From the NCBI GenBank assembly GCA_001769535.1, contig MEOH01000010.1, positions 62,001 to 126,000 of the forward strand: a stretch of DNA of 64,000 nt, written 5' to 3'. Each line of letters opens with the position of its first letter. The first letter of the stretch is position 1. Both the position numbers and the translations under genes were made by a program. The DNA comes from Bacteroidetes bacterium GWF2_38_335 (GTDB lineage Bacteria > Bacteroidota > Bacteroidia > Bacteroidales > GWF2-38-335). Below are positions 2 through 28,886 of this stretch, piece after piece. Under the pieces are notes generated by a model. It searched no databases and had not been told where the DNA came from. It worked only from the letters and a program-made list of their open reading frames with translations.

Positions 2-904
2 TCGGTCAGCTCAGGTTCCGGAATTATCAATACCCAGCCGGGATTCAAAATTGACTGGGGAAAATTATTGAAGATTTCATTTGTTTCTGCATTATATGCC
101 GATTCATTGGCAAAGATGTATTATTCAACAGTCGTACGTGAAAAGGAAAGTGGAATTTCCAGAATGTTGATGGATAAATACATTGCTGAAGCATATAAGC
201 CCGTTAAAGAAAAAAATGTGAATCAACTTTTTTCTTTATTGAGAAAAGCGGTTGAGGATTTTAACCAGGTTCCTGTAAATGAAGGCATTTATCCTAAAAT
301 TGGCATTGTTGGTGAAATTTTTGTGAAATATAATTCTTATGGCAATTTAAATGTTCCGGAATGGCTAATAAATCAGGGAATCGAAGTTTGTGTGCCACCT
401 TTGATGGATTTCTTTACACAGTATTTTATCAATGTGGATGCTGATATTAAAACCGGAATGAAAAAGTATTCGTTATCAGATTTGTACCTCAGGTTTATTG
501 AACTGCGCGCAGATTTATTCGTTCAGAAAGCCGAGAAAATAAACAGGGATTTCAGATATTTTACGCCGTTCCATTCTATTCGCCGTATTTCCAGGTACGC
601 TGAGCGAATTTTAAGTATAGCCAATCAGTATGGCGAGGGATGGCTGATCCCGGCCGAAATTTCTGCTTTTGCCGAAGATGGTGTGAATAATGTTGTAAGT
701 CTGCAACCCTTTGGATGCATTGCCAATCAGATAATTTCCAAGGGGGTTGAAAAACGGTTGCGTGATTTTTATCCTGAATTAAATCTGCTCTTTTTGGATT
801 TTGATGATGGTGCCAGCGAAGTCAATGTTCACAACCGGCTGTATTTTATGGTAAGAAATGTAAAGGAAAATATCAGGAATTCACAACCTGTTATTTCCAC
901 TTAA
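2..904 (+). CDS. C-terminal part of acyl-CoA dehydratase activase-related protein (5' truncated)
   Basis: The frame is open from the first bases of the window, so this is the last 300 residues of a larger protein. A TTG at 68 could act as a start but continues an already open frame, so I treat the gene as cut by the window edge. The segment matches from memory the C-terminal part of the large activators related to 2-hydroxyglutaryl-CoA dehydratase (COG3580/COG3581, DUF2229 type): a KIGIVGEIFVKYN segment, then GEGWLIPAEI, then LQPFGCIANQ and a final DDGASEVNVHNR segment. In the full-length family, N-terminal ASKHA ATPase modules precede this region and transfer an electron with ATP hydrolysis to an iron-sulfur dehydratase. 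The gene converges on and overlaps the 3' end of the SpoIIE phosphatase gene by 14 bases. Family assignment is fairly firm; the substrate is unknown. Confidence 0.8.
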   Translation, partial: SVSSGSGIINTQPGFKIDWGKLLKISFVSALYADSLAKMYYSTVVREKESGISRMLMDKYIAEAYKPVKEKNVNQLFSLLRKAVEDFNQVPVNEGIYPKIGIVGEIFVKYNSYGNLNVPEWLINQGIEVCVPPLMDFFTQYFINVDADIKTGMKKYSLSDLYLRFIELRADLFVQKAEKINRDFRYFTPFHSIRRISRYAERILSIANQYGEGWLIPAEISAFAEDGVNNVVSLQPFGCIANQIISKGVEKRLRDFYPELNLLFLDFDDGASEVNVHNRLYFMVRNVKENIRNSQPVIST

Positions 905-3383
905 TCCCTAAAATGGTAATGTCATCTGTTTGTGGTTCGTTACCAATCCATTCGATAATTTTTGAATCAAGTTTTTCCTTTTGTTCATTCATGGGTTGAC
1001 CTGAAATGTCAATCAACATTTCCTTTAGCCGTTTGTACAGGAACTTTTTATTATTTGGTCCGCCAAACTGATCAGGATAACCATCGGTGATTAAATACAG
1101 GGCATCATCATTTTGCAGGGTAATTTTATGTGTGGCATAGTTTTCCATGTGCGAGTGAATGGCAACAGGCATTTTATCGCCCTTATATTCAATTAGTTCT
1201 TTGTTTCTTATCAGATAAAGCGGGTTGTTTGCTCCGGCAAAAACGGCAGTTTTTTTATCTTCATCAATTACAATCATCGAGATATCCATACCATCCTTAA
1301 CTGCAATAGATTGGTCGGCTGAGTTGGTTTGCTCGTCTTCGACTACATTCTGTTTTAAAGTTCTGATAATTTTTTCACGTAAATGATCCAGGATTTTCCC
1401 CGGATCGGTAATCTTTTCCTGAATGAAAATCTCGTTGATGAAAGTCATTCCGAGCATGCTTACAATTGCTCCCGGAACCCCATGTCCCGTGCAGTCTGCA
1501 GCAGTAATAAGTATCTTTTTTCCTGATCTCCCAAACCAGAAAAAATCGCCCGAAACAACATCCCGTGGTCTGAATAAAATGAAAGAGTCACTGAAAATAT
1601 TATCCAGCAACATCGGGTTTGGCAACACTGAATCCTGAATGAGCTTGGCATAATCGATACTTTTTCTCAAATCTGAATACATTTCATCAAGAAGTGCCTT
1701 TTGAGTTGAAATTCGATCATTGGCGGCTTTTAGCTCAACATTTCTGATTCGCTCTATTTCTGCTTCCTTTTCGGCTTTTTCAACAGAATATCCTACCTGC
1801 TGTTTTTTTAATTTATTGAATGTTTCGTTATTGATGACTTCCTCTTTGATATTATGAAATTCTTTGAAATGATAGTAGGCATCAAAATGATTACCTGTTT
1901 CTTCAAGCGCAAGAGATAATTGGTAATGTATCTGATACTGGACCGGCTTTGTGTTGATGGTTTTTGAAATTTCAAGTGCGTTTTGGAGCAGGATCAATGC
2001 TTCTTCATATTTTTTTCCTGAAACCAGAAGTTTCCCTTTTCCCAGCAAACAAATAAGGTTGGCCTTTTGGTCATTTGTCTGAGCTGTAATCTCAATGGCT
2101 TTCTGATAGTAACTGATGGCTTTATCGAATTCACCGGATTCTTCGCTCATGCTGGCCATTCCAATATAAGACCATGCCAGAGCGCCTTTGTGACCAAGTT
2201 CGGTCCTGATTTCAATACTTTTATTGTAGTTTTCTTTTCCCTTTTCAAATTCTTTTTTTAATGTAAAGGCCCTTCCGATCTGGTTATAGGATGCAGCCAT
2301 ACCGGGTTTATCATCATTTTTTATGCGGATATTAAGGCATTTTTCAAAATATTGCAGTGATTCATCCAGATCTGATATACGCATGAATAGAAAACCGGCC
2401 TGACTGTAATAATCGCTCAGAAGGGTTTCATCATAATGTTTGCCTTCAATCAGTTTTAAACCAGTAATTACACAGTTGATCCCTTCGTGGTATAATCCGT
2501 ACATGTCAAAATAACCCGCTTTTACCAAAAGGGTTTTGATAATACCTCCCGTATCGGATGTTTGTCTGAAATAACGATGAATGGTGGATAACAATTCAAG
2601 GTTACTTTCATCATCTTTTGCCTGAATAAGCTCAATAGCCTTACAGTAAAGCAATGCAAAATTTTTACCCCTCAGGTATTGGATGTTTTCAGATTCATCG
2701 GCAAGTTTTAACGCCCTTTCATATGATAAACCAGATTGTATGTATCTGTTTTTCCAGATATCATCAAGGATTGACTCACTTTCACGAATCTTTTCAGCTT
2801 TTTCATTGGTTAAAAAAACATCAGCAATAGCGTGATGCGACCAGTAATCATCAGATTCGGCATAATCTGAAGCCGATTGAAATTCTTTTAATGGAATGGC
2901 AGGAGCATATTCACCGGGAAAAATGGTAACAATTTCATGACCGTTTTCTGCATTTTTTAAAATCACATGAAAAGTATCGGTGATTTTAAACTTGGGTGAA
3001 TTTATTTTTTTTACCGGCTCTCTTACAGCTATTGCAAGTTCTTCATCGGAACCGGTTATGTCAATGATGTTGTCAATGCCTAATCCCGGAGTAAAATCGG
3101 GAAAGGAAAAAGAGTAAACATGGGGTCCGTATTTGTTGGAGAAATTTCCTGCCGAAATATTTTCTTTTATCAGAATAAACAGCTTTTCGGGTGAGGAGCA
3201 GAAATAGTGGAAAAATTTTGATCCCGGATTTTTCATTGCAGAAAAAATGGCTTCTTTATCAAACCCCTTCGAGATCAAATACACAAGATAATCATTATCA
3301 ATACTGTAAAAATGTTTCAAAATATGAAACTGTCTTTCAATACTGAATGAAATAGTATTGTTTTCCTTGTTCTGGTTTTCCAT
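891..3383 (-). CDS. TPR-repeat protein with C-terminal SpoIIE/PP2C-type serine phosphatase domain
   Basis: 830 residues. The start is the ATG at 3383 (MENQNKEN), 4 bases after the stop of the WG-repeat gene; an upstream ATG at 3563 lies inside that gene and gives implausible sequence. Layout: an N-terminal region of about 170 residues I do not recognise; TPR-like helical repeats at about 280-510; a coiled coil at about 520-574 rich in Lys, Glu and Arg; then a SpoIIE-type PP2C phosphatase domain from about 575 to the end. The phosphatase shows SGDFFWFG, AADCTGHGVPGA (metal Asp near 630), LITDGYPDQFGG (Asp near 767) and the final TDDITILG (about 820), so the metal-binding acidic residues appear intact. 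No signal peptide or membrane helix is visible, so it should be cytoplasmic. It is the last gene of the STAND-STAND-WG operon and is a candidate output enzyme that removes phosphate from Ser/Thr of a partner such as an anti-anti-sigma protein (inference). Confidence 0.85.
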   Translation of the reverse strand: MENQNKENNTISFSIERQFHILKHFYSIDNDYLVYLISKGFDKEAIFSAMKNPGSKFFHYFCSSPEKLFILIKENISAGNFSNKYGPHVYSFSFPDFTPGLGIDNIIDITGSDEELAIAVREPVKKINSPKFKITDTFHVILKNAENGHEIVTIFPGEYAPAIPLKEFQSASDYAESDDYWSHHAIADVFLTNEKAEKIRESESILDDIWKNRYIQSGLSYERALKLADESENIQYLRGKNFALLYCKAIELIQAKDDESNLELLSTIHRYFRQTSDTGGIIKTLLVKAGYFDMYGLYHEGINCVITGLKLIEGKHYDETLLSDYYSQAGFLFMRISDLDESLQYFEKCLNIRIKNDDKPGMAASYNQIGRAFTLKKEFEKGKENYNKSIEIRTELGHKGALAWSYIGMASMSEESGEFDKAISYYQKAIEITAQTNDQKANLICLLGKGKLLVSGKKYEEALILLQNALEISKTINTKPVQYQIHYQLSLALEETGNHFDAYYHFKEFHNIKEEVINNETFNKLKKQQVGYSVEKAEKEAEIERIRNVELKAANDRISTQKALLDEMYSDLRKSIDYAKLIQDSVLPNPMLLDNIFSDSFILFRPRDVVSGDFFWFGRSGKKILITAADCTGHGVPGAIVSMLGMTFINEIFIQEKITDPGKILDHLREKIIRTLKQNVVEDEQTNSADQSIAVKDGMDISMIVIDEDKKTAVFAGANNPLYLIRNKELIEYKGDKMPVAIHSHMENYATHKITLQNDDALYLITDGYPDQFGGPNNKKFLYKRLKEMLIDISGQPMNEQKEKLDSKIIEWIGNEPQTDDITILGIKWK

Positions 3384-3387
3384 TTTA

Positions 3388-6300
3388 CTACTCTTTACTT
3401 GTTTTTTGCCCAAGTTTGTTGATGTAGAATTCCTGATTGTCCATCTTAACCAGAGCTTTTCCATTGACAAAGTTTTGGGCATAATCAAACTGGATGGGAA
3501 TAACCTCTTCGCCAAGAATATTGATATAGCCGTATTTTCCTTCCCATGAAAATGAAGTTTCATTGTATTTTCCGATAAACACTAAAGCCATGCCTTCCGA
3601 AAAATCAAATACCTGATCATATTTTATAGGGATGACTAAATTACCATCTTTATCAATGAAACCATATTTTCCGATATATGGATCACCTTCCTGCAATTCT
3701 CCATTGAAAGCCATAGCAAATCCATCTTTAAAATCACCTGTATAATCAACCATGATTTTTGGATATATTTCTTTTCCTTCTTTATCGATATACCCGAATT
3801 TTCCTGTTACCGGATTCCCTGAATAATTAAGTTCTCCTTTGAAAAACCTTGCGTAACCTTCATGAAAATCATAAACAACGTTGTAATCGGGTCTGCATTT
3901 AATCACCTCTTTTCCCGTATGGTCAACAAATACAAATCTGTTCGAGCTGGTGTTAGCGCCGGTATTGCTTAATTCTCCTAACATCGCTCTGGCCATTCCA
4001 TCTGAAAAATCATACACGTTAGTGTAATTTCTTTCGCATGGAATCACCTCCTTACCCGCTTTGTCTATAATACCATATTTTCCCTCACTTGTGTAACCGT
4101 ATGTGTCAATAGTTCCCTTGAATACCCATGCGTATTCCTCTGAAAAATTGCGCACAAGGTCGTAATCAAGAATACATGGAATGACTTCTTTGCCTGTTGT
4201 GTCAATAAATCCTGTGAGATTGAATTTTTTTATCTGAGCCAGGCCATTTGTAAAATATTCAATAGATGAATAAATACAAGGAGCAATCACTATCCCGCTT
4301 GTTGTAAGAAGTCCGAATTTACCGTCCTGCTGTACCAGTGATATTCCATTATGAAAATATTCATTTATTTCACTGTAAATACAAGGAGTAACTTCTTTAC
4401 CTGCTTTATTGATAATTCCATATTTTTCATCTTTTTGAACCTTTGCGAAACCATTTTTAAAAATCTCTACCAGGGTGTAATCCAGATTGCAGGGGATAAC
4501 TTCATTGCCGAGGGTATCAATAAATCCCCAAAGCAATTTTTCTTCCTTGTCACCTTGCGATTTCTCAATAATATTGACAGGAGCCATCCCTTCATAAAAG
4601 TAGCCAATGGAATTGTATTTGGAATCTAATGGTATAATTTCTTTTCCATTTTTATCTACATAGCCATATTTGCCTTCTTCGAAGTAACCTGTTTCACTCA
4701 TTTTTCCCATAAAAACACGAGCCATATTATGCTCGTTGAAAGTTTCAACATAATCGTATTTGCATGGAATAACTTCTTTTCCTTTAAGTGAAACCAGTCC
4801 GTATTTTCCTGTTTTAGGACTTCCGTAAGTATCTGTTTCACCAATAAATGCCTGTGCGATATCATCATAAAAATAGCCAATGTAATTATATTTACATGGG
4901 ATAATTTCTTTTCCGCTTTTATCAATATATCCAAATTTACCTCCTTTGTAATATCCGTACTCATCAAAAGATCCGTTGTAAACTTTGGCATATCCATCCA
5001 TAAAATCCTCAACTTTTGAATATTTTAACTTGCATGGAATCACTTCTTTTCCGTTTTTATCAATAAAACCTGTTTTTCCCTCACCCAAAGACCCGTCATC
5101 ATTGACTTTTCCGGTGAAAACCCGTGCCAGCCCTTCATTAAAATCAAATACATAATTGTATTTAAGGTTGCAGGGTATCAACTCTTTGCCTTCTATATCG
5201 ATAAAGCCATATTTTCCTCGTCTGGGGGTATTGTTTTTTGCATCACCATAAAAAACACGTGCCATATCATTTGAAAGAGTTCCTATATAATCATATTTGG
5301 GTTCGATTAAAACTTTTCCCTGGGTTGTGATTAATCCATTTTTTCCCTTGTCAGGTGTCCCCGATTCGTTTAGATCTCCCTTAAAGGAAATATAAATTCC
5401 GGTTGTGAAATAGCTGAGATTATCGTATTCACATTTGATAACTTCTTTTCCGGTTTTGTCGATATACCCGTATTTTCCCTTTAACGGAGTTCCGTAATCA
5501 TTCAGGCTTCCATTAAAAACACTCGCTATTCCTCCAACAAAATCAAATGCATAATCATATTTGCAAGGGATGATTTCCTTGCCTTCATCTGTTATAAATC
5601 CATATTTTCCATTTGATGGAGATCCGTATTCATCTGTCTGGCCAATGAATACCTTGTATGCTTTTTCATTGGGATATCCAATATTAACGTATTTACATGG
5701 GATAACTTCTTTACCGGTTGAATCTATATATCCGTAAAGTCCTTTTAGCGGTACTCCATATTCAGATAATTCTCCCTTGAAAACCATAGCGCGGCCTCCA
5801 TAAAAATCATAGGCGTAATCGTAAATGGCCTGAGTTAGTAATTCTCCCCTGAAATTTAAATATCCGTATTTTCCGATTAATGGTGATCCGTAATCACTCA
5901 ATGTGCCCTCAAAATAATTAATTATTCCTGAACCGGGAGCAGATAAATATTGATATTCACATAATATCACCTCAGTTCCTGTTGTATCAATATACCCGTA
6001 TTTCCCGGAAAGGGGAGATCCATACACGTCTGTTTGGCCGATGAATACTTTTGCCAATCCATCTGTAAATACATCAATATAATTGTATTTACATGGTGTT
6101 ACTTCAATTCCTCTTATATCAATTAACCCGTAAAAGCCTTTAATCTTATTTCCAAGGTCGTCAATTGTTCCTTTGAAAACTTTGGCGAATCCGTTTGAAA
6201 AATCCTCTGCATAGTCATATTTTCTTGTTAAATCCAATACAACTTTACCCTTTTCATTAATATATAAGTAGTTTCCTTTAACCGGATTGCCATAAACCAT

Positions 6301-8400
6301 CACACCGGTAAATGCACGTGCCAGATTTTCTGAAAATTCCCAGAAATAGTCATATTTGAAGGGAACAACCAAGGAACCTGTTGAGTCAATGAAAGACCAT
6401 TTATTATTATGCATTACCCTTGCAATTTCACCTGAAAAATCTGAAACATCATCGTATGGAAGCGAACAGGGAATTACTTCATTTCCCTGTTTGTCTACAA
6501 ATCCCCACAAGGATCCTTTTTTTACCCTTTTCTTGTCCGAAAAGAATGAGGTGCCAGTAAAATCATAATAACCAGCCTGTTTCTGCTCACTGACATCTTC
6601 GTTTTGTTGCCTGCACAGAATGGTCTCGCTTAATTTTGTTTCATCTGTAAACAGTTTTCTGTATTGTTCAGGTAATTCATTGGCACTGTAATATTTGCAT
6701 GGCACGATAATATTGCCGGTTGTATCAATACATCCCCAGAGGTTTTGCTTTTTAACCGCCGCCACATTCATATTGAAATCTGAAATAAAATCAAAAGTGA
6801 AAGGTATTACTGCAATTCCCTTTTTGTCCATGAAACTGTATTTAAAACCTTTTCGGATCACCGAGTGGCCACAACTGAAATTTCCCACATAATCGCAGTG
6901 ATCAATTACACAAGGGATGGCTTCGTTGCCCGTTTTATCTAAAAATCCTGTTTTGTTGAACTTGACTACTTTAACCATTCCATTGTAATAATGATCAATG
7001 AAATCGTATTCAAGTTCACACGGTATGATTTCGTTGTAGGTGGAATCAATAAAACCTGTTTTTCCATTCCTTACAACTTTAATCATATTATCAGAATATT
7101 GAGTGATTTCATCATAAATACAAGGAATGATTTCTTTTCCGGTTTTATCTATAAACCCATATTTTCCCTGAATAGGAGAATAATATGAGGTGTCAACTGT
7201 GCCTCGGAATACTTTGGCCATATCATCCTGAAAATTCCATAGAATATCATAATCCAGTTCGCATGGAATGACTTCATGTCCTTTGCGATCAATAAAACCA
7301 TACACTCCTTTTGCAGGCTGTGCAAATTGATTGGTAATTCCTTTGAATACAAGTGACATGCTGTCTGAAAAATTTCCTACATAATCATACTCTAAAGCAC
7401 AAGGAATGACTTCTGTGCCTGTTTTATCAATAAACCCGTAAACACCTTGGCCAATATAGTTTTTTTTAAGGGTGCCTTTGTAAACTATTGCCAATCCTTC
7501 AGAAAAACCACCCATTACATCATACTTCAGTTTACATGGAACCACCTCTTTTCCTGATCTGTCGTAGTACCCTGCTTTTTCGATTTTTAAAGCATCTGCT
7601 CCCCATTCTCCAATATAAACAGGCACAATATTGTCATAGAATTCACCTACTGCAGTGTATATAACCGGTACAATAATCTTTCCTGTTGAGTCAATTATTC
7701 CATATTTGTTATCTGATGAAATTTCTGAGGTTTTACCCAAAAATGCTTTAGACATGCCTTTATTCATTTCATATAAATAGTCATATTTGAAGGGTACAAC
7801 TTCTTTTCCTGTTTTGTCAATAAAACCGTACTTGTCTTTTAGTTTGCATAAGGCCAGACCGCAACTGAACGAAGATACATCTTCGTATTTTAACTCACAG
7901 GGTACTATTTCCTTTCCGGTACGATCGATTATACCAAATTTTTGATTTTTCTCTACCACAGCTACTCCCTCCTTAAAAGGTTTGGCATTATCATATATCA
8001 AAGGTACAATTTGCTCGCCCAGCAAATTGATAAAACCATAGTAGCCTCCCGAATAATTGCTTGATGAATAGGTGTAAACTAAAGAAAGACCTTCAGAAAA
8101 TTCTCCAATTGATGTGTATATACAGGGAACAATTTCTTTGCCATATTTATCAACCAATCCATATTTTGTTGTATAATCATTTAAATCAAAAATACTAACA
8201 CTGATCAATCCATTATTAAAGTATTCATCTACAAAATCATATTTAAATGGGGTAACCTCCATTCCTGTTTCAGTTATGAAACAAAAATTGGAACCGTTGC
8301 TTTTCTTCAATAGTTCTAGTTGCGAAAAAGATGGTACTGTTTTAATTATTGCCAGAAATAATATGGCAATAAAGATTTTATATTTTAGGTTTTTAATCAT
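3388..8400 (-). CDS. Giant exported WG-repeat protein
   Basis: 1670 residues. It begins with a Sec signal peptide (basic MIKNLKYK, a hydrophobic core, cleavage near FSQ at 26-27). The rest is about 38 WG-type repeats with the core K-Y-G-[FY]-I-D-x-x-G-K-E-[VI]-I-P-C, spaced about 35-55 residues apart. Longer units carry an insert of the type DxYGSPxxGKYG. WG repeats are predicted beta units that form extended solenoids or propellers; no enzyme activity is known for them. About 25 repeats end in Cys after the Ile-Pro or similar pair, which is many Cys residues for an exported protein. No T9SS C-terminal domain is visible, so periplasm or outer-membrane association is more likely than T9SS secretion. 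The gene sits 27 bases after the WD40-STAND gene and 4 bases before the phosphatase gene. Its partner or ligand is unknown. Confidence 0.88.
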   Translation of the reverse strand: MIKNLKYKIFIAILFLAIIKTVPSFSQLELLKKSNGSNFCFITETGMEVTPFKYDFVDEYFNNGLISVSIFDLNDYTTKYGLVDKYGKEIVPCIYTSIGEFSEGLSLVYTYSSSNYSGGYYGFINLLGEQIVPLIYDNAKPFKEGVAVVEKNQKFGIIDRTGKEIVPCELKYEDVSSFSCGLALCKLKDKYGFIDKTGKEVVPFKYDYLYEMNKGMSKAFLGKTSEISSDNKYGIIDSTGKIIVPVIYTAVGEFYDNIVPVYIGEWGADALKIEKAGYYDRSGKEVVPCKLKYDVMGGFSEGLAIVYKGTLKKNYIGQGVYGFIDKTGTEVIPCALEYDYVGNFSDSMSLVFKGITNQFAQPAKGVYGFIDRKGHEVIPCELDYDILWNFQDDMAKVFRGTVDTSYYSPIQGKYGFIDKTGKEIIPCIYDEITQYSDNMIKVVRNGKTGFIDSTYNEIIPCELEYDFIDHYYNGMVKVVKFNKTGFLDKTGNEAIPCVIDHCDYVGNFSCGHSVIRKGFKYSFMDKKGIAVIPFTFDFISDFNMNVAAVKKQNLWGCIDTTGNIIVPCKYYSANELPEQYRKLFTDETKLSETILCRQQNEDVSEQKQAGYYDFTGTSFFSDKKRVKKGSLWGFVDKQGNEVIPCSLPYDDVSDFSGEIARVMHNNKWSFIDSTGSLVVPFKYDYFWEFSENLARAFTGVMVYGNPVKGNYLYINEKGKVVLDLTRKYDYAEDFSNGFAKVFKGTIDDLGNKIKGFYGLIDIRGIEVTPCKYNYIDVFTDGLAKVFIGQTDVYGSPLSGKYGYIDTTGTEVILCEYQYLSAPGSGIINYFEGTLSDYGSPLIGKYGYLNFRGELLTQAIYDYAYDFYGGRAMVFKGELSEYGVPLKGLYGYIDSTGKEVIPCKYVNIGYPNEKAYKVFIGQTDEYGSPSNGKYGFITDEGKEIIPCKYDYAFDFVGGIASVFNGSLNDYGTPLKGKYGYIDKTGKEVIKCEYDNLSYFTTGIYISFKGDLNESGTPDKGKNGLITTQGKVLIEPKYDYIGTLSNDMARVFYGDAKNNTPRRGKYGFIDIEGKELIPCNLKYNYVFDFNEGLARVFTGKVNDDGSLGEGKTGFIDKNGKEVIPCKLKYSKVEDFMDGYAKVYNGSFDEYGYYKGGKFGYIDKSGKEIIPCKYNYIGYFYDDIAQAFIGETDTYGSPKTGKYGLVSLKGKEVIPCKYDYVETFNEHNMARVFMGKMSETGYFEEGKYGYVDKNGKEIIPLDSKYNSIGYFYEGMAPVNIIEKSQGDKEEKLLWGFIDTLGNEVIPCNLDYTLVEIFKNGFAKVQKDEKYGIINKAGKEVTPCIYSEINEYFHNGISLVQQDGKFGLLTTSGIVIAPCIYSSIEYFTNGLAQIKKFNLTGFIDTTGKEVIPCILDYDLVRNFSEEYAWVFKGTIDTYGYTSEGKYGIIDKAGKEVIPCERNYTNVYDFSDGMARAMLGELSNTGANTSSNRFVFVDHTGKEVIKCRPDYNVVYDFHEGYARFFKGELNYSGNPVTGKFGYIDKEGKEIYPKIMVDYTGDFKDGFAMAFNGELQEGDPYIGKYGFIDKDGNLVIPIKYDQVFDFSEGMALVFIGKYNETSFSWEGKYGYINILGEEVIPIQFDYAQNFVNGKALVKMDNQEFYINKLGQKTSKE

Positions 8401-8427: not shown

Positions 8428-11124
8428 TTACAAATTTATACTGAATTTATTTTTTTCCGATGTGTTCAGGTCATCATATTTGCCTGAAGCCCTGAATTGA
8501 AGATAACCTTCTTTCTTCCACGATTTCCCGGATGTGTTGATCCGGTCAAGGTCACTTTCTCCAAGATGCCAGCTTCGAATGGTCTTATCCTTCGAACCGG
8601 TGATGATGCTTTTTTTATCGGGCGAAAAACCAATAAAAGAAACAGCTCCAAGGTGACCTTTCATTTCATATATCAGTTCTTCCTTTTGACTCCAAATACA
8701 AATACTGCCTGTATTGGTGCCTGTTATGATGAATTTTCCATCATTGGTGGTGGTTACAAAGGTTACGGGTGAATTGTGTTTAAATACATTTAACTTTCTG
8801 CCCGAAAGATCCCATAAAACGGCTGTTTGATCATCCGAAGCACTTAGAATCTGCTTGCCGTTTGGATGAAAATTCAGACAATTGATTTTGCCTGAATGAT
8901 TGATTACCTTCACAAAACCTGTCGGTGTTTGATCCCACAAATATCCGGCATTACCCTGACAAACAACCAGAAACTCGCCATTTTGTGAAATTCTTGAATC
9001 GGTCACCGTGCTTGTAGTCTTCGCCTGAACTGGCTTTGCACTTTTTAAACCTGTAAGATATACAGTCCCATTCTTTCCTCCAATTAACATCATGTCTGAC
9101 TTTTCACTGTATTCAATGGATACCGGTTCAAAATTTAATTTTAAGGTATTGATCAATTCTCCTGATTGATTCCAGGTCTTCACAGACATATCTGATAAGG
9201 CGGCAACAATATAACTGTCAGTTATTTTCATGCTGTTAATTGTTGCTCCGTCAGAGGAGATATCTTTAATTTTTACTCCTGCTGATGAAAAAACTTTTAT
9301 GGAATTGTCTGTGCCTGCGCAAAATATTTTTGATCCGTCAGAATTAATGGCTGCAAAACCGGATGAGCCTGTATTTTGATTTAAAGTCTGATAAAACACA
9401 TGCCTTGCATATATGCTGTCTCTGATTTCAAGAGAATAGGAATTTGTCGGGTCAATCATCAGTGCATATTCTGCCAGTCTCAAGGCTTTTGTCGGATTGC
9501 TATTTATATAATCCTTGGCCATATTGGTAAGAAAAAGGGCTTTGGTTTTTTTCTCCTGCGACAACGCTCTTACTTCATTGACCTTTGATTGCTTATAAGC
9601 CGATTCCACTTCTTTTTTCTGGCTTTCCAACTGTACGTTTGATGTTTCAAGTTCTGCCTTGGCATTATCAGCCTCCTTTTTGGCCTCAATGGCTTTTTGT
9701 TTTTCCCGGTTGGCCAATTTTTCATTTTCAAGAGCAATCTTTTCTTTTTCCATTGCTTTGGATCTTTCGTTGAGGGCCCAGATTGAAAATCCGCTAAAAA
9801 TTGCCAGCAACAGTGCCATCAGTATTATCAGCCAAATACGACGCCTGCGTTTTGCTTTTTCGGCTTCTCTTTTACTCTTGAAAATAAATTCATTCAGTTG
9901 CTCATTGAGAAAAATCTTGCCTTCATAAGGGGCAATATAGGAAAGGTCATTTTTGTTTAGTAAAATCTTCCTTCTCAGGAAATTGTCGTAGGCATTTTCA
10001 ATGAACTGCCTGACTTCCAAAAGCTCTTTTTCAACAAGAGTGATTTTTTCATAAATTTTTGACGCAAGTGCATCATGCCGCAATTCATAATGGCCGCTTT
10101 CATCCTTATCCCTGAGAATGCGTAAATTAATGAACCGCTGAATCAAATCGCGCAGGGTTTCTATGCTCAGGTTTTTGCCTAAAGTACGGCTGTAATCCAG
10201 AACTTCTTCCTCGGTAATCTGTCTTTTTGTGCCTTTAGTCGAGACAAAAGCCTTTAATGCCACAAGGGCTGTGTCGGGGTCGGGTAGAAGTACAATCTGC
10301 TCTTCAAGAAAACTACCGAGTAAGTCCTTAACCTCGCCGGTTTTTTTCAATTGGGCTAAGGTGAATTTTGGTGACTGTCCGGGGTTCTCGCTTTTTGCAA
10401 CTTTAAAAAGTTTATCCAGAAATACCTGCAGGTAGGTGAGTTCCACATCAACACCTTCCGGCGATAACCTTTCTAGCAACTGATCCGAAAAGCCCGGCTC
10501 AATGTCAATGCCTGCAAAACGACACGGTCCCTCAATGGCATGCTGGGCATTGCTCCGAGTCATTTTTTCAATCCTGATGCGGTTTGCCAGAAATGTGGGT
10601 ATCTGTTTTTCAAATTCTGTGATGCCTGCCAGATATTCTTCCCTGATAACAAACAAAAACCTGCATTGTAAGTCGCTTTCGGCCACTTCTTTAATGGCTT
10701 TTATAAATTCCTCTTTTTCGGTTTTGCTCCCGAAAATAAACAACTCTTCAAATTGGTCAAAAATCAGGTAAACAGGCTTGAAATGGTCAAGGTAAAGTGA
10801 TCGGATTCCCTTCTTCAACCACCCGTCTTTTGCGGTGTTAAGGGTAAACGGGGTAATGGCTGCGGCAGAAAGTGAGCGGGCCAGACTTTCAGTCATGTTG
10901 CCTCCCCTGCGGATGTTTACCGGCAGCCAGTCCGACTCCGAAAATTTGCTGGCCAAACCGCAATATATGAGGGATGATTTCCCCGTTCCTGAAATTCCGT
11001 AAACCAACAGAATCTTGCTTTCGAAAATCTTTTGGTATAGTTCTTCTATCTCACGGTCACGCCCAAAGAAAATCTCTTTGTCTTCTTTTGTATAACTGTC
11101 GAGGAACTTGAAGGGTGATGTCAT
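8428..11124 (-). CDS. Membrane STAND NTPase (nSTAND1-like) with WD40 repeats
   Basis: 898 residues. Order of parts: STAND P-loop NTPase at about 1-370 with Walker A GISGTGKSS at 43-51 and Walker B-like LIFDQFEELF around 120-129 (Asp123, Glu126/127); a helical region; one transmembrane helix at about 430-451 preceded by KAKRRRR; a coiled coil at about 452-525 rich in Lys, Glu and Ala; then WD40-like beta repeats from about 580 to the C-terminus, with several repeats ending in W-D or W-S. The positive-inside rule puts the NTPase in the cytoplasm and the WD40 domain in the periplasm. STAND NTPases act as signal-gated switches that oligomerise on sensing a ligand. The NTPase half is strongly similar to the gene just upstream (same MTSPFKFLDSYTKEDKEIFF start). 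The start is the ATG 16 bases after that gene's stop. Sensor ligand unknown. Confidence 0.88.
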   Translation of the reverse strand: MTSPFKFLDSYTKEDKEIFFGRDREIEELYQKIFESKILLVYGISGTGKSSLIYCGLASKFSESDWLPVNIRRGGNMTESLARSLSAAAITPFTLNTAKDGWLKKGIRSLYLDHFKPVYLIFDQFEELFIFGSKTEKEEFIKAIKEVAESDLQCRFLFVIREEYLAGITEFEKQIPTFLANRIRIEKMTRSNAQHAIEGPCRFAGIDIEPGFSDQLLERLSPEGVDVELTYLQVFLDKLFKVAKSENPGQSPKFTLAQLKKTGEVKDLLGSFLEEQIVLLPDPDTALVALKAFVSTKGTKRQITEEEVLDYSRTLGKNLSIETLRDLIQRFINLRILRDKDESGHYELRHDALASKIYEKITLVEKELLEVRQFIENAYDNFLRRKILLNKNDLSYIAPYEGKIFLNEQLNEFIFKSKREAEKAKRRRRIWLIILMALLLAIFSGFSIWALNERSKAMEKEKIALENEKLANREKQKAIEAKKEADNAKAELETSNVQLESQKKEVESAYKQSKVNEVRALSQEKKTKALFLTNMAKDYINSNPTKALRLAEYALMIDPTNSYSLEIRDSIYARHVFYQTLNQNTGSSGFAAINSDGSKIFCAGTDNSIKVFSSAGVKIKDISSDGATINSMKITDSYIVAALSDMSVKTWNQSGELINTLKLNFEPVSIEYSEKSDMMLIGGKNGTVYLTGLKSAKPVQAKTTSTVTDSRISQNGEFLVVCQGNAGYLWDQTPTGFVKVINHSGKINCLNFHPNGKQILSASDDQTAVLWDLSGRKLNVFKHNSPVTFVTTTNDGKFIITGTNTGSICIWSQKEELIYEMKGHLGAVSFIGFSPDKKSIITGSKDKTIRSWHLGESDLDRINTSGKSWKKEGYLQFRASGKYDDLNTSEKNKFSINL

Positions 11125-11140
11125 ATAATAACTTTATATT

Positions 11141-13216
11141 TTAATCAATACTGAAAATGATTCCGTTTAGATATCGTTCCTTGCCATCTGGAGCCATTGC
11201 TTTTATATCTGAAATAAAAATATCCTGACCTTTTTTAAGCTGTTTAATGGCTTTAATCTGACTTTCATTAAAAGTTGAACTTTTAGATTCAATACAGGTA
11301 AATAGTCCGTTAACTTCAATCATTAAGACGAATCCTGTTACTGAATATTTTAAATCAAATACAGAATTTTTTATTTCAGCAATTATTCCTGTATTATTAA
11401 GCAATTCTTTTTTTGATATTTTCCCGCCTTTTTTTTCACATAAAAACGGTTCCGGATCAGGAATTCGATAAACACGAAAACCCATTCTCCCAATAGGCGT
11501 AAAAGCAGTATCTTCAGGGCGATATCTAATGGATACATTTATATAACACAACTGATTTTCTTGCTGAGGGAAGATAATATATTCGGTATTATTTGATCCT
11601 TTTTTCAGTTTGCCGCCGGTTGTAGAAACGTAAACATCTTCAGCGCTGAATCCCGGTACTGCCACTGTTATCGGATTATCGATGCCTAAATATAAAACAT
11701 TCATTTTTGTAGCAGAAATAACTGCCGAAGGCGGGCCTTTTTTCACTAATCTTAAGCTGTCAGCCTCCTTTTTAGCAACATCCGCTTCATTAATAGCTTT
11801 TAATGCTTTTTCCTTTTCTATAAGTGCAGTTTTTTCATTCTCTTTTGCTTTAGTTCTTTCATTCAATGCCCAAAATGTAAACCCCGATAAAACAACAAAT
11901 AATAAAATAGCCGCAGATACTGCAAAGGTTCTTTTTCTACGTTTTATTTTACTAAGCATCCTGCGGCTGTCATTAATAAAGCTGATAAGTTGCTCACTTA
12001 GAAACATTTTATCTTCATACGGAGCAAAATAACTGAGGTCTTTGGTTGATAGATAAATTTTTCTTCGCTGGTAATTATCAAAAGAATTTTCAATAAACTG
12101 TCTGACTTCAAGAAGTTCTTTTTCAACCAGACTGATTTTCTCATAAATTTTGAGAGCAAGAGCATCATGCCTTAATTCAAACCGGCCACTTTCGTCTTTG
12201 TCTCTTAAAATCCTTAAAGATACAAAATGCTGAATGAGTTCACGCAGACGTTCTGCTGATAAGTCTTTACCTAAGGTCCGGCAAAATTCAAAAACCTCAC
12301 TTTCTGTAATTTGTCTTTTTGTTCCTTTTGTTGAGACAAATGCTTTTAGTACGGCCAGACCAATATCAGGATCGGAGAGTTCTGAAATCTGATCATCAAG
12401 AAATGAACCCAATAAATCTTTTACATCACCTGTTTTATCCAATATAGCATGAGTGAATTGTAAATTATTTCCGGTTTTTTCGTGTGAAACAAGTTTATAA
12501 ATTTTATCAAGATAAACTTGCAAATATGTAAGTTCAATTTCATTGCTGTCGGGCGAAAGTTTATTCAGTAACTGATCAGAAAATCCTTCTTCAAGTTCAA
12601 TTCCTGAAAATTTACAGGGTCCCTCGACAGCCATTTTTGCATTTAGCCGTGACATTTTTTCAATTCTTACCCTGTTTGCCAGAATAGAGGGTATGGTTTT
12701 TTCAAATTCAGTAATTCCGGCCAGATATTCTTCCCTGATAACAAAAACAAACCGGCATTGCAAATCGCTGTCAATTACATCCTTGATTAGTTTGACGAAT
12801 GCTTCTTTTTCAGATTTGCTTCCAAAAATAAAGAGTTCTTCAAATTGATCAAAAATTAGAAAAACTGGCTTAAAATGATCAAGATATAATGAATGCAATG
12901 CTTTTTTTAGCCAACCTTCTTTTGAAGAATTTATCTTTAAGGTGGTGAGAGATAGAGCAGAAATTGATCTTTCAATGCTCTCGGTAATGTTTCCGCCCCG
13001 CCTTATATTTACAGGCAGCCAGTCGCTTTCTGAAAACTTCCCTGACAGTCCGCAATTAATAAGAGATGACTTTCCGGTACCCGAAACGCCATAAACCAAT
13101 AATGTTTTATTTTCAAAAACCTTATGGTATAATTCCTCAATTTCCTTATCGCGCCCAAAGAAAATCTCCTTGTCTTCTTTTGTGTAACTGTCGAGAAATT
13201 TAAAAGGCGATGTCAT
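11141..13216 (-). CDS. Membrane STAND NTPase fused to a GldM/PorM-like C-terminal domain
   Basis: 691 residues from the ATG at 13216, chosen because it aligns with the start of the paralogue (MTSPFKFLDS); a TTG at 13237 would add seven residues. The N-terminal NTPase has Walker A GVSGTGKSS at 43-51 and a LIFDQFEELF Walker B. A basic stretch (KIKRRKR) and one transmembrane helix follow at about 430-450, then a short coiled coil. From about 494 the sequence leaves the paralogue and resembles the last two periplasmic domains of GldM/PorM: SATKMNVLYLGIDNPITV at the start, then FRVYRIPDPEPF, GGKISKKELL, then DIKAMAPDGKERYLN at the end. GldM/PorM is the proton-driven motor protein of gliding and T9SS, whose periplasmic domains reach the GldK/GldN ring. 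Carrying these domains on a STAND switch is very unusual. This is the first gene of the operon. Confidence 0.87.
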   Translation of the reverse strand: MTSPFKFLDSYTKEDKEIFFGRDKEIEELYHKVFENKTLLVYGVSGTGKSSLINCGLSGKFSESDWLPVNIRRGGNITESIERSISALSLTTLKINSSKEGWLKKALHSLYLDHFKPVFLIFDQFEELFIFGSKSEKEAFVKLIKDVIDSDLQCRFVFVIREEYLAGITEFEKTIPSILANRVRIEKMSRLNAKMAVEGPCKFSGIELEEGFSDQLLNKLSPDSNEIELTYLQVYLDKIYKLVSHEKTGNNLQFTHAILDKTGDVKDLLGSFLDDQISELSDPDIGLAVLKAFVSTKGTKRQITESEVFEFCRTLGKDLSAERLRELIQHFVSLRILRDKDESGRFELRHDALALKIYEKISLVEKELLEVRQFIENSFDNYQRRKIYLSTKDLSYFAPYEDKMFLSEQLISFINDSRRMLSKIKRRKRTFAVSAAILLFVVLSGFTFWALNERTKAKENEKTALIEKEKALKAINEADVAKKEADSLRLVKKGPPSAVISATKMNVLYLGIDNPITVAVPGFSAEDVYVSTTGGKLKKGSNNTEYIIFPQQENQLCYINVSIRYRPEDTAFTPIGRMGFRVYRIPDPEPFLCEKKGGKISKKELLNNTGIIAEIKNSVFDLKYSVTGFVLMIEVNGLFTCIESKSSTFNESQIKAIKQLKKGQDIFISDIKAMAPDGKERYLNGIIFSID

Positions 13217-13272
13217 TTTTTCTTTATTTATCAGCAACCTGAGTTAATACTTGCTTTTTTTCATTTTCATCC

Positions 13273-15862: not shown

Positions 15863-16019
15863 TTTTTATAAAAATTTAATTATTATTTTAAATAAAACCC
15901 AATTTCAGACAATAATACTGAGTAAGTTAAAACGACAAGTCTGAGGGGTGGAGTTTGTCATAAAATAATTTTTGGAATTGAAATATTTATATAGTATTTT
16001 TAAAACTTATTTATATGTC

Positions 16020-16508
16020 ATGAAAACTCTGTTATTTATTTTTGCGATTTCTTTTGTTTGTATAGTAGAGGCTCAATCCAGCCTATTCGTAAGACAATAC
16101 AGTTTTCCTCAAACAGCATATTTTCTGGAAGATGTAAGCAAAATCAGTTTTTCCGGTTCAGAAATGAATGTCGAAAAAACCGGTGGAGAAGTGGATGTGT
16201 ATAACCTGTCGGATATCCGTTACCTGAATTTTGAAAACCTGGCTACAGAAAATGAGGCCCGGGAGGAAATTGAAAGTACAGATGTCAGGTGCTACCCCAA
16301 TCCGGTCAAAGAAACCCTGAATTTTGAATTTGCAGATCAGGAAAACCATAAAATTGAAATAATTGATTTTCAGGGAAAGTTGGTTTATGTGGTTGAAATG
16401 AACGGAGAAAATGCAAAAGTAAATTTCTCAGGTTTTCCGAAAGGACTGTATCTCTGCCGTATTTCGAACGGAAACAACACAGTAACAAAAAAAGTCATTA
16501 AAAATTAA
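16020..16508 (+). CDS. Small secreted protein with T9SS type A sorting domain
   Basis: 162 residues from the ATG at 16020, which begins a good signal peptide (MKTLLFIFAISFVCIVEAQ); an upstream TTG at 15972 is disfavoured. A short N-terminal module (LFVRQYSFPQTAYFLED, then ISFSGSEMNVEKTGGEVDV and DIRYLNF) is followed by a C-terminal T9SS type A sorting domain of about 75 residues (CYPNPVKETLNFEF, then IIDFQGKLVY, GLYLCRIS and a final KKVIKN). The sorting domain directs export through the Por system and anchoring or release at the cell surface. It contains little besides the module and the sorting signal, so it may be a minimal surface adaptor. It is followed 13 bases later by the FISUMP gene. 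Confidence 0.75.
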   Translation: MKTLLFIFAISFVCIVEAQSSLFVRQYSFPQTAYFLEDVSKISFSGSEMNVEKTGGEVDVYNLSDIRYLNFENLATENEAREEIESTDVRCYPNPVKETLNFEFADQENHKIEIIDFQGKLVYVVEMNGENAKVNFSGFPKGLYLCRISNGNNTVTKKVIKN

Positions 16509-17695: not shown

Positions 17696-18241
17696 ATGAA
17701 AGAGGATAAGATGATTTTACGAGAAGCTATAATAGCAAGTAAAATCATTACTATTAGAGATGAAAAGGTAATACTTGATGTTCATTTGGCTGAACTATAT
17801 GAAGTTGAAACAAGGGTTTTAAAACAAGCTGTGCGTAGGAACAAAGATCGGTTTCCATACGATTTCATGTATGAACTTACTGATGCTGAAATAGATGAAA
17901 TGGTATCACAAAATGTGATACCTTCTAAAAGACATTTTGGCGGTGCTGTTCCTTTTGCTTTTACAGAAAATGGTGTTGCTATGCTTTCAAGTGTCCTTAA
18001 TAGTAAAAAAGCAATTGAAGTTAATATTTCAATAATGCGAACTTTTACAATTTTAAGAAAAATGATTTTGCTAAATAAAGATATCATGGAGGAAATAAAT
18101 AAAATCAGAAAGCAAATGCAGGAACAGGGCCATAACATCATGCTGATTTTTCAGTACCTCAAGCAATTTGAAGAAAGCAAACAGCAAAAAACAGAACAAG
18201 AAAATCGGAAAAGAATAGGATTTAAAACAGACCCTAACTAA
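17696..18241 (+). CDS. ORF6N domain DNA-binding protein
   Basis: 181 residues from the ATG at 17696; a GTG at 17678 overlaps the predicted promoter, and an ATG at 17711 is also possible. Residues about 10-95 form an ORF6N (KilA-N-associated) domain: ILDVHLAELYEVETRVLKQAVRRN, then RFPYDFMYELT, then FTENGVAMLSSVLNS. The C-terminal third is a coiled-coil-like helical tail rich in Lys, Gln and Glu. ORF6N proteins come from phage and plasmid gene pools (phage antirepressor relatives) and are common as solitary genes in Bacteroidota genomes. Molecular role is unclear; DNA binding is assumed from the family. It converges on the next gene with an 8-base overlap of the 3' ends. Confidence 0.85.
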   Translation: MKEDKMILREAIIASKIITIRDEKVILDVHLAELYEVETRVLKQAVRRNKDRFPYDFMYELTDAEIDEMVSQNVIPSKRHFGGAVPFAFTENGVAMLSSVLNSKKAIEVNISIMRTFTILRKMILLNKDIMEEINKIRKQMQEQGHNIMLIFQYLKQFEESKQQKTEQENRKRIGFKTDPN

Positions 18242-19277
18242 CCTCAACCCCGGTCAATGTCTTCATCATATCCTTAAACTCCGCCAACAAAATCTGATAG
18301 TTGCTCAGCGTTCTTAAATCACATTTTTCGGTTACCTCTGTTCCTACATACATCAGCAGGTCTGATCGGAACTTAGTGTAAAGAAAAATATCCTTTTTTA
18401 TATCAAACTTTTCCTTGTTGTCAAGGATTTCTGAGTTTGTATCTATAATAAGTGGTGATAAATTCAGATAATCTTCAATAGATTTGATGTTTTTCATTAA
18501 AAGCACTGAGCGGCTCTCTGCATAATTTGGCTCATTTAGTTCCTGTGCCTTAAAATCTGAATCGGAACTGTTCAACAGGTCTATCACATGATGAAACATG
18601 GCTTGCTGATTTTTTGGCTTGATAACCTTTATTTCACGCACCGAAACCAACTTGTATTTTGCGAAAAATGAAATTCGTTGTAATATGAAAGTGAGCTTTT
18701 CTTCATATTCAACACACCTTTTTTCAATTTCTTCCTGTGTCAGATTGATCTGGTAATGACCTATCTCATTTCTTTCAGGGACCCAGAAATCAAGTGCATT
18801 ATAAAAGTTTTTATCGAAATTTTCCTTGATCTCCGGTATAAACCATTCTGTGTTTTTTTCATTGAAAATATTGCCGATGGCTCTGATCATCCAGGTGAAA
18901 TTGCCCATGCTCAATACCAAAAACCTTCCTGAAAAATCTTTGGCGAAGGACTCCGGAATCTCAATGTTCCCCTTCACTTTTTCCTTCCAAAGCTGCGATA
19001 ACATTACAAAACTGGTGAACTGCATGGTTCTTTCAATGGTCTTGAAAATCTGGTCTAATCGCATACGGTCAAGCTGCCGCATTGAAGCAGAAAAAAGTCT
19101 CCTCAGTTCAACCCCAATGGGCCAGGGGTAATTTTTGATGATCAAATCGCCCAAAACCCTGTAATCTGCAACTTCATCGTCCTCATCATCTGCTATCAGA
19201 TGCTTTTGTAATGCCGGCCTGTGTTTCACCATTTCGTCAAACACCTTCCTGATCATATCTTCGTTTATTACAGCCAT
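18234..19277 (-). CDS. Unknown protein with an R-x4-H (HEPN-like) motif
   Basis: 347 residues, no signal peptide or membrane helix, so cytoplasmic. It is acidic near the N-terminus (ADDEDDEVADYR at 29-40) and mostly helical by appearance. Residues 169-174 read RNEIGH, an R-N-x3-H pattern that fits the R[N/D]x4H signature of HEPN ribonucleases, placed after helix-like segments (MGNFTWMIRAIGNIF at 124-138). I do not recognise the family with confidence and the motif alone is not proof. HEPN proteins are typical toxin or abortive-infection RNases and also partners of STAND NTPases, and a STAND operon lies 5 kb away. Its dense, even sequence suggests a conserved protein rather than a spurious frame. 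Confidence 0.7.
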   Translation of the reverse strand: MAVINEDMIRKVFDEMVKHRPALQKHLIADDEDDEVADYRVLGDLIIKNYPWPIGVELRRLFSASMRQLDRMRLDQIFKTIERTMQFTSFVMLSQLWKEKVKGNIEIPESFAKDFSGRFLVLSMGNFTWMIRAIGNIFNEKNTEWFIPEIKENFDKNFYNALDFWVPERNEIGHYQINLTQEEIEKRCVEYEEKLTFILQRISFFAKYKLVSVREIKVIKPKNQQAMFHHVIDLLNSSDSDFKAQELNEPNYAESRSVLLMKNIKSIEDYLNLSPLIIDTNSEILDNKEKFDIKKDIFLYTKFRSDLLMYVGTEVTEKCDLRTLSNYQILLAEFKDMMKTLTGVEVS

Positions 19278-26963: not shown

Positions 26964-28886
26964 ATGTTAAAAAAATTACTATTTATCCTGTCTTGCATTG
27001 CTGTAATGAATTTTGCAAATGCACAAACCCTCATCATCAGCGAAGTTGCCGATGGAACTGGTGCCGGCGGTTATCCGAAAATTGTTGAATTAACAAATAC
27101 CGGTGCAACTACTTATAGTCTTGAAGGACTAAAATTAAAACTTTATACAAACGGAAACACAACTCCCAATTCCACTTTTACATTTCCGGTATTCGACCTT
27201 CCTTCTGGTCAGTCATTGGTCCTAACCAATATTGACAACGTAACTGCAGGTCAGCTTTGGTCCGAATTTAACCTTACTGCCCCGGCAAATGTTATTTATG
27301 TTGTCGGTGCTGTTAACAGTAATGGCGATGATGTATACCAATTGACTGATGCCGCAGATGTTGTTATCGATATCTATGGTGAAGTGGGAGTAGACGGTAC
27401 CGGACAGGTATGGGAATTTCTCGATTCTTATGCCTACAGAAACATTGAAATCGTAAACGGAAATCCTGTTTTTACAGCTTCTGAATGGACAATTGCCGGT
27501 CCGGATGTCCTTGACCCGCATGCAGCCGATTTATCTGCTTTCCTTACACCTGGCACACATACTTTTAACCCATCAACTGCCCCCGTAATTACTAATATTG
27601 TGATCAATCCCCTCGACCCAACATCAACTGATGCAGTAAATGTATTCGCAGATGTTGCTCCTCAGGGCGTTGCTTCAATCACTTCAGTGAAATTGTTCTG
27701 GGGAACGGTTTCAGGATCTCTTACAAACGAAATTGTAATGAATATGGTTTCCGGATCAACTTATGGGACTTCTTCAGCAATCCCTGCACAAATCAGCGGA
27801 ACAACTGTTTATTATAAAGTTGAAGCTATTGATAATACTCCTGTGACTTCCACTTCAGTTGAAATGTCCTATTTTATTGGAAATCTTGCGCCCGTAATTT
27901 CATCAATTCTCATTACTCCGGTTGCTCCAAACGAAACCGAAACTGTTTCAGTTTCTGCAACAGTTACCGATGATAACGCAGTGGGTACTGTGACACTATG
28001 GTGGAGTACCGACGGAATTATTTTTGCAAATTCAATAAATATGTCTGTTTCTACTGGCGATACTTATGTGACCGATAGCCAGATTCCTGCACAAGTTGTT
28101 GGAACCACCGTCAGTTATTTTATTAATGCCGGAGATAACGAAACCGCTACCACCAATTCTGATACCCTTAGTTATACCACCGTTCTTGCCCCGGGAAGTT
28201 TTACATTTATGAATGGCGGTTTCGAAGATTGGACAAGTGGCGCTCCCGATTACTGGACCACAATTGATTCTGATATTCTTGTTACCGAAGAAACTTCAAC
28301 CATTTATGAGGGTTTAAAATCTGCTCGTATTGAACTTATTTCTGTTGACCAGACTAATGCTGACATACGCCAGACTGTTTCTGTTTTTGCAGGAGCCACA
28401 TATACTTTTTCAGTAATGGTTTACCAAACCGACACTTTTGCCCGGGCCAGACTGTTTGCAGGTGATTTCCAGGGCTATTCCGATCCTTTAGTTACAGGCG
28501 AATGGCAAATGGTTTCTTATGACTATGTTGCTGATGCTGATGCCGATATTGAAGTTGGTCTCCGCTTTTACGACCGCCCCGGATTTACCACTTCTTCAGT
28601 CTTCTATGTTGATGGCTTCGGAATGGTAGATATTACAGGAATATGCTGCACAATCAACAGCGAAAATATTGCCTTGTTCCCCAATCCCGCAAAAGAAGTA
28701 ATCAATATATCTGCATCTGACAAATTGAGCTCATTCATAATTACTGATATTTCAGGAAAAATTGTTGTGTCTGAAAGAATCAACAGCAGCATGATCAATG
28801 TTGAGGAGCTTGAAAGTGGATTGCATTTCATTACCTTAACAGGAAATGATGGGAAAATATACAGAAGTAAATTTATAAAATTGTAA
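26964..28886 (+). CDS. Secreted lamin-tail domain protein with T9SS sorting signal
   Basis: 640 residues. Signal peptide to NFANAQ (about 21). Residues about 22-195 form a lamin-tail domain (LIISEVADGTG, KIVELTNTG, LEGLKLKLYT, LPSGQSLVLTN), an immunoglobulin-like fold used in secreted bacterial proteins and nucleases. Two Ig-like beta domains follow at about 205-410, each opening with a proline-containing VISSILITPVAPNE-type strand. A jelly-roll, carbohydrate-binding-like domain (NGGFEDWTSGAPDYWTT, then AGATYTFSVMVYQ) spans about 415-560. The last 75 residues are a T9SS type A sorting domain (LFPNPAKEVINI, ITDISGKIV, LESGLHFITL and a final SKFIKL). It should be exported by the Por system to the cell surface. 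No catalytic residues are recognised; an adhesive or binding role is likely. Confidence 0.88.
   Translation: MLKKLLFILSCIAVMNFANAQTLIISEVADGTGAGGYPKIVELTNTGATTYSLEGLKLKLYTNGNTTPNSTFTFPVFDLPSGQSLVLTNIDNVTAGQLWSEFNLTAPANVIYVVGAVNSNGDDVYQLTDAADVVIDIYGEVGVDGTGQVWEFLDSYAYRNIEIVNGNPVFTASEWTIAGPDVLDPHAADLSAFLTPGTHTFNPSTAPVITNIVINPLDPTSTDAVNVFADVAPQGVASITSVKLFWGTVSGSLTNEIVMNMVSGSTYGTSSAIPAQISGTTVYYKVEAIDNTPVTSTSVEMSYFIGNLAPVISSILITPVAPNETETVSVSATVTDDNAVGTVTLWWSTDGIIFANSINMSVSTGDTYVTDSQIPAQVVGTTVSYFINAGDNETATTNSDTLSYTTVLAPGSFTFMNGGFEDWTSGAPDYWTTIDSDILVTEETSTIYEGLKSARIELISVDQTNADIRQTVSVFAGATYTFSVMVYQTDTFARARLFAGDFQGYSDPLVTGEWQMVSYDYVADADADIEVGLRFYDRPGFTTSSVFYVDGFGMVDITGICCTINSENIALFPNPAKEVINISASDKLSSFIITDISGKIVVSERINSSMINVEELESGLHFITLTGNDGKIYRSKFIKL

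Follow-up and report, generated by a model that had tools for sequence, protein, structure and literature searches.

A putative membrane-spanning nSTAND1 receptor with a GldM/PorM-derived periplasmic domain and a predicted HEPN-like partner protein in a Bacteroidetes genome

The window analysed here is the whole stretch of 64,000 nucleotides taken from contig MEOH01000010.1 of Bacteroidetes bacterium GWF2_38_335. It contains a gene in which an nSTAND1 NTPase domain, a transmembrane (TM) helix and domains D3 and D4 of GldM/PorM are joined. This gene, its domains and the genes considered with it are as follows, with coordinates given in the window:

18234..19277, minus strand: partner gene X, 347 aa, with a predicted HEPN-like domain (residues ~48-206) and a predicted OB-like domain (residues ~209-274)
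11141..13216, minus strand: nSTAND1-TM-GldM D3-D4 fusion gene, 691 aa, ATG at 13216
12155..13207, minus strand: nSTAND1 NTPase domain of the fusion, residues 4-354 (Pfam PF20703, E 1.2e-41)
11858..11935, minus strand: single transmembrane helix of the fusion, residues 428-453 (hydropathy peak 2.24)
11732..11857, minus strand: helical extension and low-confidence linker of the fusion, residues 454-495 (by AF2 pLDDT)
11471..11728, minus strand: GldM/PorM D3 of the fusion, residues 497-582 (PF21602, GldM_3rd, E 3.3e-17)
11156..11461, minus strand: GldM/PorM D4 of the fusion, residues 586-687 (PF12080, GldM_4th, E 3.8e-18)
8428..11124, minus strand: sister gene nSTAND1-TM-WD40, 16 bases downstream of the fusion in the same operon-like run
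3388..8400, minus strand: WG-repeat protein gene, 27 bases downstream of the WD40 sister
891..3383, minus strand: TPR-SpoIIE (PP2C-like) phosphatase gene, taken to start at M61 (about 3383), the mechanical ORF extending to 3563

The fusion gene is a single open frame with its stop at 11141 and no internal stops, in the position and on the strand given by the preliminary description of this DNA, and a TTG at 13237 offers an alternative start. Its NTPase domain scored 144 bits against PF20703, which passes the cut-off of 27.1, and both nucleotide-binding motifs are intact, namely Walker A (GVSGTGKS, residues 43-50) and Walker B (VFLIFDQFE, residues 118-126). By structure comparison, the NTPase fold resembles Cdc6/ORC-type and archaeal Walker-type ATPases, with 2qen as the top match (Z 19.4). 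This half had been described as that of the neighbouring gene, and residues 1-490 were indeed found to share 69% identity with the WD40 sister.

The profile search of the C-terminal region, which had been proposed beforehand as a possible refutation of the fusion, returned the GldM family and no unrelated family. The GldM_3rd and GldM_4th matches, like that of PF20703, each lie above the curated Pfam cut-off. The NCBIfam model for PorM/GldM (TIGR03517) was matched in its C-terminal part only (model positions 319-519 against residues 491-686, 1e-31), and the resulting 110 bits fall below the 180-bit whole-protein cut-off, as is expected since only part of PorM/GldM is present. No Pfam match to PF12081 or PF21601 was obtained in the fusion. 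Classification of the fusion as a member of the GldM family was rejected, as D1-D2 are absent and the TIGR03517 equivalog cut-off is missed. In a PDB sequence search, residues 495-686 matched PorM 6ey5 (E 1.7e-19). The AlphaFold2 model gave pLDDT values of about 90-97 for D3-D4, and VIA-align placed this region on PorM 7cmg_B with a Z of 19.2 (rmsd 2.2 A, 185 aligned, 32% identity) and on GldM 6ey4 with a Z of 17.4. Pfam, NCBIfam, PDB sequence and predicted structure therefore agree on the joining of NTPase and D3-D4. The pTM of the complete model was 0.54, so the relative placement of the two halves is not predicted. When the own genome was searched with PF12080, the fusion ranked first, above the organism's own GldM.

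Residues 428-453 are the sole strongly hydrophobic segment of the fusion, and the 15 residues preceding this helix carry a net charge of +5. By the positive-inside rule, this indicates an N-in/C-out orientation. From these topology signals, the protein is predicted to cross the inner membrane once, with the NTPase in the cytoplasm and D3-D4 in the periplasm. The model becomes uncertain around the crossing, most pLDDT values from residue ~451 onwards falling under 60 and those of residues 467-495 under 50.

Downstream of the fusion and its sister, the WG-repeat gene encodes a protein of 1670 aa with 35 repeat stretches and a signal-peptide-like N-terminus, and the M61 start of the TPR-SpoIIE gene would leave 4 bases after its stop. 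Homologues of the TPR-SpoIIE gene also lie near nSTAND1 genes at other loci (L047, L064, L069, L071, L072, L154, L156, L165 and L169). In genome G090, an nSTAND1-GldM gene adjoins both an nSTAND1-FGE gene and a TPR-SpoIIE gene, and the order at the second locus of G577 is X, nSTAND1-FGE, TPR-SpoIIE. The sensor position thus varies inside one nSTAND1 subfamily, where it is occupied by WD40, FGE-sulfatase or GldM domains. A PADLOC scan of the fusion, the WD40 sister, X and the phosphatase gave weak or generic matches only, none of them relevant, and no defence-island context was found for the fusion, which speaks against a role in a conflict system.

Relatives of the fusion were sought by scanning GTDB genomes with the nSTAND1 subfamily and by searches of the order. 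Genes of the nSTAND1-TM-GldM type were detected in six further genomes, in two of them in broken or split form (L047 of G090, and L075), giving seven genomes altogether. The other relatives are L063 (927 aa, in a genome apparently the same as G771), L073 (1024 aa), L076 (625 aa, ending at a contig end) and L153 of G577 (800 aa), the last with a clear D3 (PF21602, 1.1e-05) and a D4 that is not significant. A recognisable D4 is retained in most fused copies, and several relatives have C-terminal extensions beyond it. The fusion is carried by 4 of the 393 genomes of the order, in contrast to GldM, which the majority of them possess. At the threshold applied, a 95% complete genome of the same genus gave no match. 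When 395 genomes from across the phylum were searched at E <= 1e-80, the own genome alone was matched, which suggests that members of this nSTAND1 subfamily are uncommon in the sample. The TM-to-D4 segment of L047 gave no match in 395 class genomes at E <= 1e-30, a threshold too strict to recover even its own genome. The N-terminal domain of true GldM is present in every genome with the fusion; this co-occurrence is a weak test, because a GldM_4th match was obtained in 81 of the 88 genomes of good quality among the sampled relatives. It should also be noted that L047 (positions 4299-6629, contig C24 of G090) holds tandem nSTAND1 genes whose first ~70 codons are nearly identical, one with an FGE domain and one broken ahead of its TM-GldM part; this near-identity may reflect either gene conversion or assembly collapse.

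The partner gene X is present in one copy only in the own genome, on the same strand as the fusion and 5017 bases upstream of it. Between the two lie plus-strand ORFs, including those for a T9SS-tail protein, a Fib_succ_major protein and an ORF6N protein, which were possibly inserted there. Co-expression of X and the fusion is not a given, as they are 5 kb apart across oppositely oriented genes. At related loci (L065-L140), almost every nSTAND1 homologue is immediately preceded by an X homologue, and in many cases the two genes share a few bases. The nSTAND1 subfamily of the fusion belongs to a two-gene system with X, which is recognised here for the first time and had been missed in the preliminary description; the fusion is the receptor half of this system.

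A Pfam search of X itself gave no match above cut-off. The model of X (pLDDT 88.8) is helical to about residue 207 and mostly beta beyond. For residues 48-206, many HEPN chains were among the best rows in VIA-align at Z 6.0-7.0 (Csm6 6tug 7.0, 2hsb 6.8, 5yep 6.8, 6m6u 6.5 and 7ae6 6.3). Values of this size are moderate for helical folds and within reach of chance, and some unrelated helical membrane proteins score alike, so that the fold by itself is no proof. Residues 209-274 matched OB-type folds, and a Foldseek search with the model returned nothing at E <= 0.001. The third long helix of X (residues 156-175) bears the motif RNEIGH (residues 169-174) towards its C-terminal end, which agrees with the placement described for the HEPN RNase motif, in the C-terminal part of helix 3 (PMC3710099), and supports the assignment independently of the fold. 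Alignment of 76 complete X proteins, of which 13 are standalone and 63 long, showed the RNxxxH motif in all of the former and in none of the latter. The R, N and H are invariant over the 13 standalone proteins of a diverged clade while the intervening letters vary, as would be expected of a catalytic site. The contrast between standalone and long forms corresponds to a single split on the X tree (97/93) and hence to one event, not to independent events. A short relative (L077) showed weak HEPN matches of 5.6e-4 and 1.4e-3 (RiboL-PSP-HEPN and Apea-like HEPN). Seven long relatives of 568-638 aa were scanned; a CHAT Pfam match was obtained above cut-off in L086, L079, L090 and L097 and below it in L139, and the long X of L083 gave weak TIR/DUF4062 matches. 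X is accordingly predicted from its model and motif to consist of a HEPN-like and an OB-like domain, and is a candidate RNase. The pair of CHAT-X and nSTAND1 was also observed to be widespread (L079, L086, L090, L097 and others), occurring in Bacteroidota, alphaproteobacteria, KSB1 and Aminicenantes.

The own genome carries a gldK-gldL-gldM-gldN cluster with a second gldN (gldK, gldL and gldN being named by reading of their sequences), the gldN duplication lying directly after gldM (L061:6702-8912). T9SS sorting tails are encoded inside the window at 15972-16508 and 26964-28886. In PorM, D4 alone suffices for PorN binding in a two-hybrid test, and the PorM-PorN KD is about 1 uM (PMC5790014). 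D4 also cross-links to PorN, and an interface residue is known (PMC12421860). Since D4 binds and cross-links to PorN, D3-D4 would be the piece to borrow for docking on the ring. When the PorN-interface loop was aligned, the fused copies proved too diverged for its conservation to be compared. On a tree of D3-D4, the fused copies had end branches of 1.1-3.1 and the true GldM copies mostly of 0.2-0.9; the fused copies did not form a single supported clade (2 changes) and were not placed with their own GldM.

Parts of GldM were also found outside the T9SS operon of the own genome, where they occur split, as tandem lipoprotein-like D1-D2 proteins on contig C1 (L173:3645-5726) and as tandem secreted D3-D4 proteins on C4, C5 and C19 (L058, L059 and L060). 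Elsewhere, a protein encoded at L043:1720-4038 (G013:C609) combines a signal peptide, GldM D4, several TM helices and a LytS-type histidine kinase, and its gene adjoins that of a LytTR-like response regulator; from its sequence, this protein would appear to use a GldM domain as a two-component sensor. At L057:1218-4384 (G098:C38), two highly divergent GldM-like genes, coding for 513 and 529 aa, stand in tandem. The presence of GldM modules on secreted proteins and on a histidine kinase means that ring binding may have been lost in the fusion.

The reading that is preferred here, with a probability of about 0.5, is that the fusion, a bacterial relative of the immune switch proteins of plants and animals, is a membrane-spanning STAND receptor of the conflict type, whose periplasmic sensor was taken over from the T9SS/gliding motor and whose effector is a HEPN RNase. 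A STAND NTPase together with an effector-type domain, in cis or in trans, is the combination that marks STAND conflict systems; at most related loci X adjoins nSTAND1, and in several relatives it has CHAT at its N-terminus. In such a system, the periplasmic D3-D4 would respond to the condition of the cell envelope, most probably that of the T9SS PorN/PorK ring or of something attached to this ring. The NTPase could then exchange its nucleotide and oligomerise, and in this switched form it would activate X in the cytoplasm, where X is predicted to act as a HEPN RNase; a CHAT protease-like domain would fill the effector role in those relatives whose X is long. The cell may consequently stop growing or kill itself, or it may mount a milder stress response that the TPR-SpoIIE phosphatase adjusts. 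That the receptor is more precisely an NLR-like guard, whose D3-D4 docks on the PorN/PorK ring or serves as a decoy for attackers of the ring and which fires the HEPN RNase, is put forward tentatively, at somewhat less than even odds. The earlier interpretation, in which the fusion was thought to monitor or compete for the ring, is partly supported. Sensing is plausible in view of the periplasmic topology, the published binding of D4 to PorN (PMC5790014) and the true GldM in all genomes with the fusion. Contact with the ring itself is called into question by the reuse of GldM modules without the motor, the divergence of the fused copies and the loss of a recognisable D4 in L153, and nothing was found in favour of competition.

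The decoy version deserves separate consideration, as it would have the receptor read an attacker's binding to its copy of D3-D4 and not the ring itself. As in plant NLRs, the integrated domain would here act as bait for phage proteins or toxins that make use of the T9SS/gliding machinery. Mutations in gld/spr genes, including a gldM stop codon, accompany phage resistance in Flavobacterium columnare (PMC9233685), and a Cellulophaga GldM missense mutation is cited as conferring phage resistance (PMC13288928); these mutations imply that phages depend on the machine. nSTAND1 proteins are part of conflict systems (PMC8195603), and the fused copies have diverged further than the majority of true GldM copies, as an arms race predicts. 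Relaxed constraint explains this faster divergence equally well, however, and the cited Cellulophaga mutation lies in domain 2, which is absent from the fusion. Direct contact of a phage with GldM D3-D4 is not known, and the dependence may run through secreted adhesins. A decoy of this kind is therefore considered unlikely, though far from negligible.

A purely structural role for D3-D4, which would merely dimerise the receptor or hold it in the periplasm while the signal comes from elsewhere, is rather improbable. It would agree with the dimerisation of PorM/GldM through D2-D3, in which strand 7 of D3 is swapped (PMC5790014), and with L153, which keeps D3 without a significant D4. Nevertheless, D4 is recognisable in most copies, isolated D4 showed no self-interaction in a two-hybrid test (PMC5790014), and the sister proteins carry binding folds, WD40 or FGE, at the same position. 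It is also quite improbable, and slightly more so, that the STAND protein and the TPR-SpoIIE protein form a housekeeping regulator that reports T9SS assembly or load without suicide, with a purpose like that of PorX-PorY. The TPR-SpoIIE gene does lie near nSTAND1 genes in several genomes, and the GldM-domain histidine kinase with its LytTR-type regulator places GldM domains in ordinary signalling. The patchy spread of the fusion in its order is, however, unlike that of a core regulator, and the constant partner X carries a HEPN motif or CHAT, which are of effector type. Finally, tandem homologous nSTAND1 genes invite misassembly and L047 is broken at the corresponding place, which could point to an assembly chimera or a chance joining of two genes. 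The frame of 691 codons is clean, and the same order of TM, linker, D3 and D4 recurs in independent assemblies, so an artefact was rejected and this explanation has a very small probability.

The bacterial STAND receptors known so far are regarded, for the most part, as sensors that act in the cytoplasm and detect phage proteins. If the guard reading is true, the guard and integrated-decoy principle of plant NLRs would operate in bacteria and across a membrane. A receptor holding part of an envelope machine in the periplasm would show that bacteria guard a named structure of their own and signal through the membrane to a death-type effector. The GldM sensor also gives a handle on the sensor positions of these proteins, as its likely ligand, PorN/PorK, is known in atomic detail, unlike those of the WD40 and FGE domains. 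From the analysis of X, a HEPN/OB family is also predicted whose standalone members retain the RNase motif, while members with an extra N-terminal part such as CHAT lack it.

The nSTAND1 clade and its conflict context have already been published. No text describing a GldM-STAND fusion or an nSTAND1-X pair was found in the open-access literature, a scope that leaves many journals outside it, and both appear to be undescribed. Compared with HEPN RNases such as HepT, Csm6 and the Apea-like proteins, X is predicted to share the helical arrangement and carries the RNxxxH motif towards the C-terminal end of helix 3; it differs in its added OB-like domain, its pairing with nSTAND1 and its having no family match above cut-off. 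With PorM/GldM (TIGR03517; 6ey4, 6ey5 and 7cmg), the fusion has D3 and D4 in common, as judged from profiles, from sequence and from the predicted structure, whereas D1, D2 and the N-terminal TM helix that pairs with PorL/GldL are replaced by the NTPase. In Avs proteins, the effectors are fused N-terminally and act in the cytoplasm. The likeness to Avs lies in a STAND NTPase switching an effector (also as cited in PMC10907252), while the effector candidate here is encoded in trans and the sensor is predicted to face the periplasm. The closest resemblance in clade and arrangement is to the conflict NTPases for which nSTAND1 is the published name (PMC8195603, which does not mention GldM) and to the DGR-diversified nSTAND1-FGE proteins (PMC10907252), where C-terminal FGE/CLec domains of conflict STANDs have been proposed as antigen sensors. 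The fusion shares with these the PF20703 clade, a variable C-terminal sensor position, a separate effector-type partner gene and WD40/FGE sister genes, and is set apart by a sensor consisting of GldM D3-D4, predicted to be periplasmic, and by a partner predicted to be a HEPN-like/OB-like protein.
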